Source of the DNA: Mycobacteriales bacterium
GTDB taxonomy: Bacteria > Actinomycetota > Actinomycetes > Mycobacteriales > Mycobacteriaceae
Reading direction: 5' to 3'
Length of the DNA stretch: 64,000 nucleotides
Assembly: GCA_012842085.1 (NCBI GenBank)
Contig: DUTM01000009.1
Span: forward strand, 62,001-126,000
Shown here one piece after another: positions 45,098-51,788 of this stretch (within the stretch, counting starts at the first letter, position 1; each line of letters opens with the position of its first letter). A program made the position numbers and the translations under genes. Under the pieces are notes generated by a model. It made no database searches. It saw nothing but the letters and a program-made list of their open reading frames with translations, and had not been told where the DNA came from.

Positions 45098-46300
45098 ATG
45101 AGTGATCGCCCACTATCAGTTGTTCTTGCTGGTGGCGGAACCGCAGGCCATATTGAACCTGCGATGGCAGTGGCAGATGCCTTGCGTGAACTTGACCCTG
45201 CTATAAAAATCACTGCGCTCGGTACTGTGCGGGGATTGGAAACTACGCTGGTTCCCGAACGCGGCTATCCTCTAGAACTTATTCAAGCGGTACCACTCCC
45301 GCGTCGCATTACGAAAGACCTATTCTTGGTTCCGCACCGCTTGTGGAAGTCAGTGAAGCAAGCACGGGCCGTCATGGACGACGTGGAAGCAGATGTACTA
45401 ATCGGGTTCGGCGGATATGTCTCCATGTCCGCGTACCTCGCGGCACGGATGCCGTTCCGGAAAAAGATCCCATATGTGGTGCATGAAGCAAATGCCCGAG
45501 CCGGTATCGCCAATAAAATCGGCGCCGGTAAGGCTGCCCGGGTGCTGGGGGCGGTACCAGATTGTGGATTTCCGATCGAGCAAGTTGGTATCCCGGTACG
45601 TCCCTCCATCTCCAGTCTCGACCGGGCAGCGCTACGGGAAGAAGCACGCGAATTCTTCGGACTTGATTCGGAAAAACCGGTGGTGCTGCAATTCGGAGGG
45701 TCCCAGGGCGCACAATCGTTAAACCGGATCATGCACGAGTCCGTCCAGCCACTAGCTGACCTGGGAGTAGGGGTTTTGCATGCGGTGGGACCCAAGAATT
45801 TTGATGCCGACGATCCCACCATAGGGGGAGAGCCAGCCGGCGACGTCGACTACTTCACAGTGGGCGGAAAACCGGCGCGCAACATTGCCCCAGCGGGTGC
45901 ACCACCACAAGTGCAGGTGCCCTACATCAACTATATGAACTACGCTTACGCTGCTGCAGATCTGGTGATATGTCGCAGTGGGGCGATGACGGTCGCAGAA
46001 ATCTCGGCAGTCGGTCTGCCGGCGCTATATGTGCCATTACCCATCGGAAACGGCGAACAAGCTTTAAACGCGGAACCTGTGGTGGCCGCGGGCGGCGGGT
46101 CGCTGATTCACGACCACGATCTCACCGCCGAAAAACTGACCCACTGGGTTTCAGAGCTACTGTCCGATCGGGACAAATATAAAGCAGCTGTCGAAAGCGC
46201 AATAACTGCTGGTTCTCGCGATGCTGCCGAAAAAGTTGCTCACATCGCTATTGACGTTGCACACGGCCAATCCGCTTCTCCTGAAGGAGATCAAAAATGA
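45098..46300 (+). CDS. murG: Lipid II-forming UDP-GlcNAc transferase
   Basis: Adds GlcNAc to lipid I, giving lipid II, on the inner membrane face (400 aa). Motifs: [17 protein letters not shown] near residue 10, [12 protein letters not shown] near 129, [13 protein letters not shown] near 198 and the nucleotide-binding [21 protein letters not shown] near 292. An extra segment of about 35 residues, roughly 235-270, rich in Gly/Pro/Ala, makes it longer than the usual 350-370 residues. The stop overlaps the murC ATG (ATGA). Confidence 0.95.
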
Positions 46301-47751
46301 GTAATAGCCTTCCTTCCGACTTGCAACACGTCCACATGATTGGAGTGGGCGGTGCTGGTATGTCAGGTGTTGCCCGGATCTTGCTCGCCCGCGGTGGTGC
46401 AGTAAGTGGCTCCGATGTGAGGGATTCTCGCACCCTCGTGGCATTGGAGGCACGCGGGGTGAAAGTGGCAATAGGCCACGACATCGCCAACCTCGAACTG
46501 CTGGAGCGAGAACCCGACTGCGTCATCGTTTCCTATGCAGCCATTCCCGAATCCAACCCAGAACTGCGGGAGGCTCGTCAGCGGGGAACCCCCATCAAAA
46601 CCCGTTCCCAAGTGTTGGCTCAGCTCATGGAGGGCTATCGCACCCTTCTGATCGCCGGCACGCATGGTAAAACGTCCACAACCTCGATGGCTATTGTGGC
46701 TTTCCAAGGATTTGGATCCGACCCATCGTTTGCGGTGGGAGGGGCGCTCCATGAGACGGGCACCAATGCTCATCACGGTTCTGGCGATTTGTTTATTGCG
46801 GAAGCAGACGAATCTGATGCGTCCCTTTTGCAGTACCGGGCATCAATGGCCATCGTCACCAACGTCGAACCAGACCACCTGAACTTTTTCGGGACTGCAG
46901 AAGCCTACTGCCAAGTGTTCGCCGATTTTCTTGACTGCATAGAGCCAGGCGGTGCGCTCATCGTCTGTGTCGACGATCCGGGATCCCGCACCCTTGCGGC
47001 ATACGCGGTACAGCAAGGGCTGCGCGTTATTGGCTACGGCACAGAAACCGCTGCTGCACAGGCGATCCGGGATGGTATCCCGGTGGGTGGAGTGCTGCGC
47101 TTTTGGGAACCCACCGTGGATGGCCTGCGCGCCAGCATCCAACTAAGCGAAGAGGTTAGCCCACGCGAACTCATCCTTCCGGTCCCAGGCGAACACATGG
47201 CGCTCAATGCACTCTCCACCTTGCTGGCGGTACGTGAATATGGGGGAGACGTGGCGCAAAGCCTCGAATCCCTGAAACATTTCGGCGGAGTTAACCGGCG
47301 TTTCCAATACCACGGAAAAGCGCAAGGGATCCGTGTGTACGATGACTACGCCCACCATCCCACCGAGGCGCGCGCGGTGTTGACCGCCGCCCGGGAAGTG
47401 GCAGACGCTGACCCCCAAGATACTGGCCGACCAGGCCGTGTCATTGTGTGCTTCCAGCCGCACCTCTACAGCCGAACCCAAGAGTTTGCGGAAGAATTCG
47501 CAAAAGCACTCGACCTCGCCGATTATGCTATCGTGCTGGATATTTACGGAGCTAGAGAACAGGCTATACCGGGGGTGACGGCAGAGCTTATCACCAGCAA
47601 ACTGACTATTCCCCACCGCTACCAACCCGATTTCTCTAAAGTTCCCTACGACGTGGTGGCAATTGCCGAACCCGGCGACATTGTGCTCACTATGGGAGCC
47701 GGTAACGTGACGATGGAAGCAGATGCCATCTTGTCGTTACTAAAGGGGTAG
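46297..47751 (+). CDS. murC: UDP-MurNAc:L-alanine ligase
   Basis: First of the Mur ligases, adding L-Ala to UDP-MurNAc (484 aa). It shows [18 protein letters not shown] near residue 12, the P-loop [13 protein letters not shown] near 118, [10 protein letters not shown] near 169 and [14 protein letters not shown] near 349. The P-loop has Ser where the second Thr is usual (GKTST), a conservative change. Overlaps murG by 4 bp and is followed 3 bp later by ftsQ. Confidence 0.95.
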
Positions 47752-48600: not shown

Positions 48601-49704
48601 ATGACCACGCCACAGCACAATTTGGCCGTGATTAAAGTCGTCGGCATCGGCGGCGGTGGTACTAACGCCATCAAAAGAATGATGGGCGAAGGTATGACCG
48701 GCGTCGACTTCATCGCCCTGAATACCGACGAACAAGATCTACTGGACTGCGAAGCCCCCACCAAACTGGACATCGGCCAAACCACCACCCGCGGCTTGGG
48801 GGCAGGAGCAGACCCTGCTGTGGGAGAGCGCGCAGCTAAAGACAATTCGCAAGATATTGAAGATGTCCTCACTGGCGCTGACATGGTGTTTGTCACTGCT
48901 GGCGAAGGCGGCGGAACGGGTACTGGTGGTGCTCCCATCGTTGCGAATATTGCACGTGACCTAGGCGCATTGACGGTTGCGGTAGTAACGAAACCCTTCT
49001 CCTTCGAAGGTAAACGACGTGCGGAAAACGCTGCGGCGGGTATCGAGAAGCTGAAAGGTGCATGTGACACCCTCATCACCATTCCCAACGATCGACTCCT
49101 GCAGCAGGAAGATCGTTCAATTTCCATTAATGACGCTTTCTCGAAAGCTGATGAAGTTCTCTTCAATGGTGTCCAAGGAATTACCGAACTTATCTCCACC
49201 CCCGGTCTCATTAACGTCGACTTCGCGGACGTGAAGTCGGTTTTGGCAGAGTCCGGATCCGCGCTGATGGGTATCGGTCGGGCCTCTGGGAATGATCGTG
49301 CCGCCAAGGCCACTGATGCTGCCATTAATTCACCACTGCTGGAATACAGCATGGAGGGTGCTAAAGGCGTGCTGCTGTCTATTGCCGGCGGCTCCGACCT
49401 CGGCCTCTTTGAAGCCAATGAGGCTGCCAGCATTGTCCGCGATAAAGCCCATCCGGATGCCAACATTATTTTCGGTACCGTTATCGACGATTCTCTGGGA
49501 GACGAAGTTCGCGTCACCGTAGTCGCAGCTGGTTTCGAGGGAGGCGAGCCCCCGAAGCGCATGTTCGACGCCACTGGTATGCCGGTCGACGAACTGGATG
49601 TTATTGACGAAGAAGAACCCGCAGAAGCCGGAGTGACTATTCGTCAACGTGCCAAGAGGGTGTCGGAGGAAGACGATATCGACATCCCGCCCTTTATGCG
49701 GTAA
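48601..49704 (+). CDS. ftsZ: Cell division GTPase FtsZ
   Basis: Tubulin homologue that forms the Z-ring (367 aa). The GTP-binding GGGTNAIKRM near the N-terminus, tubulin signature GGGTGTGGAP near residue 101 and the T7-loop NVDFADVKSVL near 205 are intact. A short linker ends in the conserved tail DIPPFMR, used to bind SepF and FtsW in actinobacteria. There is no ftsA in the cluster, so SepF (encoded three genes later) is the expected membrane anchor. Confidence 0.98.
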   Translation: MTTPQHNLAVIKVVGIGGGGTNAIKRMMGEGMTGVDFIALNTDEQDLLDCEAPTKLDIGQTTTRGLGAGADPAVGERAAKDNSQDIEDVLTGADMVFVTAGEGGGTGTGGAPIVANIARDLGALTVAVVTKPFSFEGKRRAENAAAGIEKLKGACDTLITIPNDRLLQQEDRSISINDAFSKADEVLFNGVQGITELISTPGLINVDFADVKSVLAESGSALMGIGRASGNDRAAKATDAAINSPLLEYSMEGAKGVLLSIAGGSDLGLFEANEAASIVRDKAHPDANIIFGTVIDDSLGDEVRVTVVAAGFEGGEPPKRMFDATGMPVDELDVIDEEEPAEAGVTIRQRAKRVSEEDDIDIPPFMR

Positions 49705-49730: not shown

Positions 49731-50519
49731 ATGACACGCCCGCAGGATCAACGCAGCGCATTCTCCTCTGAGGATGCGCCACCCGCGGTGCGCGTAAGGC
49801 GTGTGATCACAACACGAGCGGGTGGACAATCCACTGGCCGCTACCACGGACTTAATCTCTCCCTGGATGTGGGTGACAATCCCGTCACCGTCACCCGCAA
49901 CAGGGAGAGGTTAGCCGAACAGCTAGGCCTCGATCTGAACCGCTTTGTGTGGATGGAACAAATCGCCGGACCACACGTCCACGTTGTGGAAGAACCCCTC
50001 GAAGATGTTGAAACTGGAGTGAGCCGTCCCGCCCTCGAAAATGTCGACGCGGTAGTAACGACCTGCGTTGACCTCCCACTAGTGGTACTTGCTGCAGATG
50101 CTGTACCGATTTTGGTAGGGGATGACGAAGCCGGAGTTATAGCCGCAATAAATGGCAGCAAATGGGGAGTACGTGCCGGGATTCTGGCCAACACTCTCGA
50201 AGAGATGGTGCGGCTGGGTGCCCGCCATGACCATATGCATGCCCTGCTGGGGCCTTCGGCTACTGGGCGTAATTATTTTGTTTCCGCTGCGGAAGCCCGA
50301 GATATTGAGGCACATCTTCCGCACTCTACAACTCAACACAAAAACGGGAAATGGGTGCTGGATCTTCGCAGTGGCATCACCCATTACCTACTGGAAGCAG
50401 GTTTAGCGGGAGTCAATGTTGACCCCCGTTGCACGATCGAAGACGAAGCTTTCTACAGCACCTTCAGAGAGGGGAAAACAGGTCGCCAAGCTGGGATAAT
50501 TTGGAGGTCGACTACATGA
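49731..50519 (+). CDS. pgeF: PgeF/YfiH-family (laccase-domain) protein lacking its metal ligands
   Basis: Member of the YfiH family (262 aa) in the place always occupied by it, between ftsZ and yggS. Active members are zinc-dependent purine nucleoside phosphorylases/deaminases or peptidoglycan-editing factors with ligands His, Cys and His. Here QVHG reads QIAG (A79), ADCxP reads ADAVP (A124) and HAGWRG reads NGSKWG (N141), so all three ligands are missing. The rest of the fold is well kept: TTRAGGQSTGRYHGLNLSLDVGD near residue 27, GPSATGRNYFV near 174 and the C-terminal CTIEDEAFYSTFREGKTGRQAG. Likely a non-catalytic scaffold or regulator. Its stop overlaps the yggS ATG. Confidence 0.88.
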   Translation: MTRPQDQRSAFSSEDAPPAVRVRRVITTRAGGQSTGRYHGLNLSLDVGDNPVTVTRNRERLAEQLGLDLNRFVWMEQIAGPHVHVVEEPLEDVETGVSRPALENVDAVVTTCVDLPLVVLAADAVPILVGDDEAGVIAAINGSKWGVRAGILANTLEEMVRLGARHDHMHALLGPSATGRNYFVSAAEARDIEAHLPHSTTQHKNGKWVLDLRSGITHYLLEAGLAGVNVDPRCTIEDEAFYSTFREGKTGRQAGIIWRSTT

Positions 50520-51253
50520 CAAAAACTATTGCACAAGGCTATCAGGACACTCAGGAACGTATTCGCGCTGCATGTGAGGAAGCAGGTCGCGATCCGCAAG
50601 ACGTCAGCTTGATGGTTGTCACTAAATTTCATCCGGTAGAGACGGTTGCGGAACTAGTGCGCCTTGGGGTGCGCAACTTTGGTGAAAACCGTGAACAGGA
50701 AGCGCGGCAGAAAGCCCAACAGCTCCTGGAATTGGATGCGGAAGAAGGAGTGCTGCAAGGGAAAGCTGCAGAGTGGTCCATGATTGGGCAGTTACAGAGC
50801 AACAAGTGCAATGCAGTCTCTCGGTGGGCACACAGCGTGCACTCGGTTGACTCCCAAAAACTGGTGAGACGCTTGGGCAATGGGGTACGCCGCGCACTGG
50901 ATGAAGGCAGCCGAACCGACTCCAAACTAGGTATCTTTTTGCAGGTAAGCATCGACGACGATATTGCGCGCGGCGGAACCAGTGAAGATGAGGTTTTTCG
51001 CCTAGCTGACCAGACAAGCGACGATCCCAATTTACAGCTGCGTGGCTTAATGTCAGTGCCGCCCTTAGATTCTGATCCGGACAAATGCTTCGGCTACCTA
51101 CAACAACTTTCACAACAACTTCAGGAAAATCACCCTGAAGCAAACGAAATTTCAGCTGGCATGACCAGTGATTTAGAGGCAGCGATTCGGCACGGATCAA
51201 CCTGTGTTCGAGTCGGTACGGCCATTCTTGGTCCACGTCCACAGCAGCACTAA
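50516..51253 (+). CDS. yggS: PLP homeostasis protein, YggS/PROSC family
   Basis: Pyridoxal-phosphate carrier with an alanine-racemase-like barrel (245 aa), controlling free PLP and amino-acid balance. The PLP lysine is in VVTKFHPVE near residue 38; NFGENREQEARQK near 63 and WSMIGQLQSNKCN near 94 are typical. ATG 50516 overlaps the pgeF stop (ATGA) and has GGAGG 8 nt upstream; a longer reading from 50429 lies inside pgeF and is rejected. Confidence 0.94.
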   Translation: MTKTIAQGYQDTQERIRAACEEAGRDPQDVSLMVVTKFHPVETVAELVRLGVRNFGENREQEARQKAQQLLELDAEEGVLQGKAAEWSMIGQLQSNKCNAVSRWAHSVHSVDSQKLVRRLGNGVRRALDEGSRTDSKLGIFLQVSIDDDIARGGTSEDEVFRLADQTSDDPNLQLRGLMSVPPLDSDPDKCFGYLQQLSQQLQENHPEANEISAGMTSDLEAAIRHGSTCVRVGTAILGPRPQQH

Positions 51254-51263
51254 TGGAGGAACC

Positions 51264-51788
51264 ATGAAATTTGTTGACAACCTTAAAAAATATTTCGGAA
51301 TGGCCCCGCCAGACGAGAACGACTATTTAGACGACTATGTCGAAGACCCCGGCTATGCGGAAGAATATGGCGACCGGTACGGTGACAAATACTCCGATTA
51401 TGGCTACCAAGAGGGAGAATACGACGACTATGGAAATCCCCCTGGAGCCACACCGCTGCCACCCCTGCATTCTCGGGATCGTTACGGTGACGAATCGAGT
51501 CGCTACGCTCCGCGGGAAGCCAAACAAATAACAACTGTGAGCCCCAAATCATACGCAGAAGCCGAACTTATCGGTAAACGATTCCGGGAAGGCAATCCAG
51601 TAGTCGTGGATCTGTCCCGCCTCGACACCGCGCTTGGACAGCGTCTCATCGACTTTTCGTCCGGATTGGTGTTCGCCATGGACGGTTCGCTGGAGCGTAT
51701 TGCGCGGAAGGTTTTCCTGCTTTCACCTGCGGAAACAGTTGTTAACGACGAAGATCGTCGGCGGCTCGAAAACAACTACGGTCACTAA
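51264..51788 (+). CDS. sepF: Cell division protein SepF
   Basis: Membrane anchor and bundler of FtsZ in bacteria without FtsA (174 aa). The N-terminal amphipathic membrane helix (MKFVDNLKKYFGM) is followed by an acidic Tyr/Asp/Gly-rich linker and the SepF core (about 85-174) with SPKSYAEAELIGKRFREGNPVV and QRLIDFSSGLVFAMDGSLERI-type segments. ATG 51264 has GGAGG 4 nt before it and gives the correct helix. It lies 10 bp after yggS. Confidence 0.95.
   Translation: MKFVDNLKKYFGMAPPDENDYLDDYVEDPGYAEEYGDRYGDKYSDYGYQEGEYDDYGNPPGATPLPPLHSRDRYGDESSRYAPREAKQITTVSPKSYAEAELIGKRFREGNPVVVDLSRLDTALGQRLIDFSSGLVFAMDGSLERIARKVFLLSPAETVVNDEDRRRLENNYGH

Follow-up and report, generated by a model that had tools for sequence, protein, structure and literature searches.

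A genus-specific PgeF/YfiH protein without its catalytic residues, probably retained for a non-catalytic role

Two jobs have been proposed for PgeF, the removal of wrongly charged peptidoglycan precursors and the cleavage of purine nucleosides, with one active site for both. In E. coli PgeF/YfiH, Cys107, His124 and Asp89 make up, with His71, the UDP-MurNAc-L-Ser amidase site, and the C107A mutation alone leaves no detectable activity (PMC8844914). In YlmD (Geobacillus/Bacillus), Cys125, His80 and His142 coordinate the ribose of inosine (PMC6978800). The C-terminal DUF152 domain of FAMIN/LACC1 belongs to the same family; FAMIN, an active purine enzyme, has retained Cys284, His250 and His301 (PMC6978800), and a sensor role without amidase function has been suggested for it (PMC8844914).

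Our analysis showed that the window, by which we mean the whole stretch of 64,000 nucleotides of Mycobacteriales DNA that was analysed, encodes a full-length member of this family without equivalents of these Cys and His residues. The gene and its neighbours are as follows:

48601 to 49704, + strand: ftsZ, directly upstream of pgeF, a single tubulin-family gene that is strongly derived in the genus
49731 to 50519, + strand: pgeF-like gene, encoding a PgeF/YfiH protein (PF02578) of 262 aa that is predicted to be catalytically dead
50516 to 51253, + strand: yggS (PLP-binding YggS family), sharing a 4-base ATGA overlap with pgeF at 50516-50519
51264 to 51788, + strand: sepF (PF04472, 4.1e-22), downstream of yggS

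The pgeF-like product matches PF02578 over the entire model (positions 1-238 of 238; 7.3e-55, 186.4 bits against the curated 22.9; Pfam), and its 120.9 bits lie below the cut-off of 141.15 for the PgeF equivalog TIGR00726. It is the one PF02578 gene of the window genome (85% complete), and no second, active PgeF copy was found either there or in the genome of a sister species (99% complete). The frame is intact and preceded by a ribosome-binding-like GTAGGA, and the coupling to yggS is kept, both as the preliminary description of this DNA had stated; in the sister species the pgeF/yggS overlap is 8 bases. An AlphaFold model built from three sequences is of modest confidence (pLDDT 64.8, pTM 0.73; the single-sequence model has a pLDDT of 34), and its strong structure matches are to DUF152 (PgeF/YfiH) only (E 1e-17 to 1e-14), which argues that the PgeF fold has been kept.

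The positions of interest within the gene were mapped by aligning the window protein to S. flexneri YfiH (1u05), with E. coli numbering for the reference residues; the pairing of YlmD His47 with YfiH H39 is a putative correspondence. The "others" below are 78 further distinct copies, drawn from the family and its neighbourhood:

49791 to 49916, + strand: codons 21-62, a hyperconserved segment near the N terminus that agrees with the sister species at 41/42 residues
49866 to 49868, + strand: Asp46 where the family has His (YlmD gatekeeper His47; YfiH H39); Asp in both genus members, His in 74/78 others
49959 to 49970, + strand: QIAG, with the specificity residue Gln69 kept as Q77 and His71 replaced by A79 (Gln in the sister species)
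50046 to 50048, + strand: Asp106, equivalent to Asp89 of the triad, kept; Asp in 78/78 others and both genus members
50094 to 50108, + strand: ADAVP, with catalytic Cys107 replaced by A124; Ala in both genus members, Cys in 78/78 others
50151 to 50168, + strand: NGSKWG in place of HAGRxG, with His124 replaced by N141 and the Arg at 144 by Lys (Ala in the sister species); His, Ala, Gly and Arg are invariant in the 78 others
50460 to 50468, + strand: T244-F245-R246, with Tyr227 and Arg228 (MurNAc/uracil contacts) lost and R229 kept; position 245 is Arg in all 78 others and Phe or Tyr in the genus

Three of the four residues of the catalytic set are thus replaced (His71, Cys107 and His124 of E. 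coli YfiH by Ala79, Ala124 and Asn141), and only Asp89 survives, as D106. The preliminary description had read QIAG, ADAVP and NGSKWG as replacing QVHG, ADCxP and HAGWRG, and this reading stands; its account of them as three lost metal ligands holds as far as the residues are gone, but the zinc-ligand label is incomplete, since structures show a catalytic and substrate-binding triad (PMC8844914, PMC6978800). The UDP-MurNAc groove has fared little better: Tyr227, Arg228, Trp127 and Arg128 have become Thr, Phe, Lys and Trp (T244, F245, K144 and W145), while Q77 and R252 are kept, the latter being the equivalent of Arg235 and a Cys in the sister species. At the Trp127 position the family residue is Arg (78/78), so that the window species has changed it to Lys and the sister species to Ala. 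Because the substrate-contact residues have changed along with the catalytic ones, the whole pocket has been dismantled. What the window copy still shares with E. coli YfiH, beyond homology over its full length, is Gln69, Asp89, Asp106 and Arg235 (E. coli numbering), whereas Cys107, His124, His71, Tyr227 and Arg228 are lost and the protein is expected to be inactive. With YlmD it shares the fold and an equivalent of Arg59, but Cys125, His80, His142 and the gatekeeper His47 are all replaced. The Cys-to-Ala change of the E. coli C107A mutant (7f3v, 7w1g) occurs here naturally; YfiH C107A still traps UDP-MurNAc, whereas the window protein has lost the groove residues too. Since the same residues serve the amidase in YfiH and ribose coordination in YlmD, either proposed activity is expected to have been lost, whatever role a metal may play, and neither amidase editing nor purine-nucleoside cleavage would be predicted of this protein. 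Automatic names such as PgeF or laccase mislabel the gene, which is a caution against such naming.

The loss is not peculiar to one assembly. The sister genome, a single closed contig of 1.86 Mb, has one PgeF copy, about 63% identical to the window protein and likewise without all three His/Cys/His residues; it reads EQLQS, SDAVP, NGSALG and SLDVGD. Most of the replacements are common to both species, D46, A124, N141-G142-S143 and T244 among them. The alignment with close genomes that the preliminary description had proposed thus finds the triple loss again in the sister species and the His/Cys/His set present in every one of the 78 other copies. A sequencing or assembly error was rejected on the strength of the identical loss in the sister genome. 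A wide actinobacterial loss was rejected as well: in a phylum-wide sample that deliberately took in the lowest-scoring copies, the residues are intact in 84 aligned copies (a handful of which also belong to the family set), and departures were seen in one other genus only, at a single site. In that genus (family f32; L160 and L162) the motif reads QVAG, with Ala at the His71 position and Cys107 and His124 kept; L163 is a fragment and was left unscored. A search of IMG/VR found no relatives. In the PgeF tree the genus pair has a support of 1.0 and is sister to a Corynebacterium clade (0.964), a placement with which that from six neighbouring genes is consistent; descent was therefore vertical, and horizontal replacement was rejected. 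As the derived residues are common to both species, the loss appears to have preceded their split. It is old and, on the evidence of two genomes of two species, fixed in the genus.

The gene has nevertheless remained under purifying selection since the loss of the active site. Between the two species, pgeF has a dN of 0.335 and a dS of 2.17 (NG86), giving a dN/dS of 0.154, similar to that of ftsW (0.156); identities at first, second and third codon positions are 0.69, 0.77 and 0.39, the third being near saturation, so that the ratio is a rough one. The residue losses common to the two species are accompanied, in other words, by a dN/dS of about 0.15. At the same time, 23-24 of 77 near-invariant family columns have changed in PgeF, against 3/49 in YggS, 12/171 in MurC and 9/133 in MurG; the earlier statement that conservation extends over the remaining protein is borne out in part only, further active-site and substrate positions being among these columns. 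PgeF has also evolved faster than its neighbours both before and after the species split, which amounts to a partial relaxation: its stem and crown lengths, each divided by that of the remaining tree (0.107 and 0.113; FastTree on a fixed topology), exceed those of the neighbours other than ftsZ (0.031-0.079 and 0.036-0.073), namely yggS, murC, murG, ftsQ and ftsW, and the FtsZ stem is longer still. A low dN/dS together with so many altered near-invariant columns and long branches indicates that the old constraint has gone and a different one remains.

This constraint is most visible in residues 21-62. Their identity between the two species is 97.6%, against a mean of 69% in 1724 pairs of relatives matched on the identity of the remaining protein, none of which reaches 97.6% (sequences were reused, so the pairs are not independent). 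Synonymous codons of residues 30-60 are also more conserved than those in the remainder of the gene (permutation p 0.007), a pattern that a nucleic-acid element or a local exchange, as opposed to a protein interface, might produce; the rise includes codons 31-60 (49821-49910), where an element may be embedded.

No PNP_UDP_1 (PF01048) or adenosine deaminase (PF00962) gene was found in the window genome (85% complete) or the sister genome, and these are present in 8/8 and 7/8 relatives, respectively. Their absence suggests that purine-nucleoside salvage has been lost in the genus, in which case the loss of the PgeF catalytic residues coincides with that of purine-nucleoside breakdown enzymes. 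In the papers searched, no account was found of what has become of peptidoglycan position 1 in this genus. The neighbours yggS and sepF are arranged as in the ylm operon, where YlmD lies beside ylmE-sepF. The genus FtsZ (48601-49704, + strand) has a mean identity of about 69-70% to its relatives, which are 88% identical among themselves, and 90% between the two species; its stem branch takes up 2.09 of a tree of 7.2, its C-terminal linker is short and it is the sole tubulin-family gene. MurC (46297-47751, + strand) carries genus-shared changes at near-invariant positions (D196N, D209A, R214C, R236Y and A308T). In Brevibacterium lactofermentum, a Corynebacterium relative, the yfiH gene downstream of ftsZ is non-essential, according to the title of Honrubia 2001 (cited in PMC3296230). 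The loss of PgeF activity is evidently survivable; the surprise is the retention of the protein.

We consider it probable that this is a genus-specific PgeF pseudoenzyme, vertically inherited and retained by selection for a non-catalytic role. The main rival, which we think unlikely though well worth weighing, is that PgeF is no longer needed and that its frame stays open mainly through translational coupling of yggS (and sepF) to the pgeF stop. The ATGA overlap and its 8-base counterpart in the sister species, the faster evolution of pgeF than of most of its neighbours, the absence of PgeF from 28 of 300 good-quality genomes of the phylum, the dispensability announced in the Honrubia title and the parallel loss of purine-salvage families would all fit such relaxed selection. 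However, coupling would preserve a frame and not amino acids, and does not account for about 63% identity in the face of saturated third positions or for 41 identical residues in 42. The pgeF start and ribosome-binding signals have also been kept.

That the remodelled pocket (D46, N141 and S143 with the kept D106, Q77 and R58) acts on or binds another ligand, e.g. a nucleotide or sugar nucleotide, strikes us as very doubtful. D46, A124, N141-G142-S143 and T244 are conserved between the two species, and the hyperconserved segment contains R58, the likely equivalent of the YlmD purine-contact residue Arg59 (kept by sequence, with numbering that is approximate to YlmD), but the species differ at four other former active-site positions (A79/Q, K144/A, F245/Y and R252/C), so the pocket as a whole has not been conserved. 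Survival of the original activity through other residues is extremely improbable: of the PHVH histidines, put forward earlier as a possible rescue, H82 is found in both species, but the sister species has a Ser for H84, no Cys lies nearby to replace Cys107, and C107A alone abolishes the activity of E. coli YfiH (PMC8844914).

Under the pseudoenzyme reading, the catalytic centre (Cys107, His124 and His71) would have been lost in the ancestor that both species share, along with the UDP-MurNAc-holding groove residues Tyr227, Arg228 and the Arg that follows HAG. Purifying selection would since have maintained the protein, co-translated with yggS, for a task other than catalysis. This task probably involves the N-terminal segment and is most likely one of binding, with residues 21-62 as the predicted interface, within the cell-division/peptidoglycan operon. 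The structural role beside FtsZ and SepF that was proposed at the outset may, judging from gene position, be considered as a putative one; the more specific idea of a dedicated division or peptidoglycan partner that acts through this segment and has co-evolved with the derived FtsZ next door is one we regard as doubtful.

A lineage that has dispensed with the active site while retaining the protein amounts to a natural separation-of-function mutant for PgeF. This genus can show whether a widespread protein that is often encoded beside ftsZ, yggS and sepF has a third, non-catalytic role, and the window protein would be a candidate for the inactive ligand-binding or sensor members of the family on which the YfiH structure paper speculated (PMC8844914).
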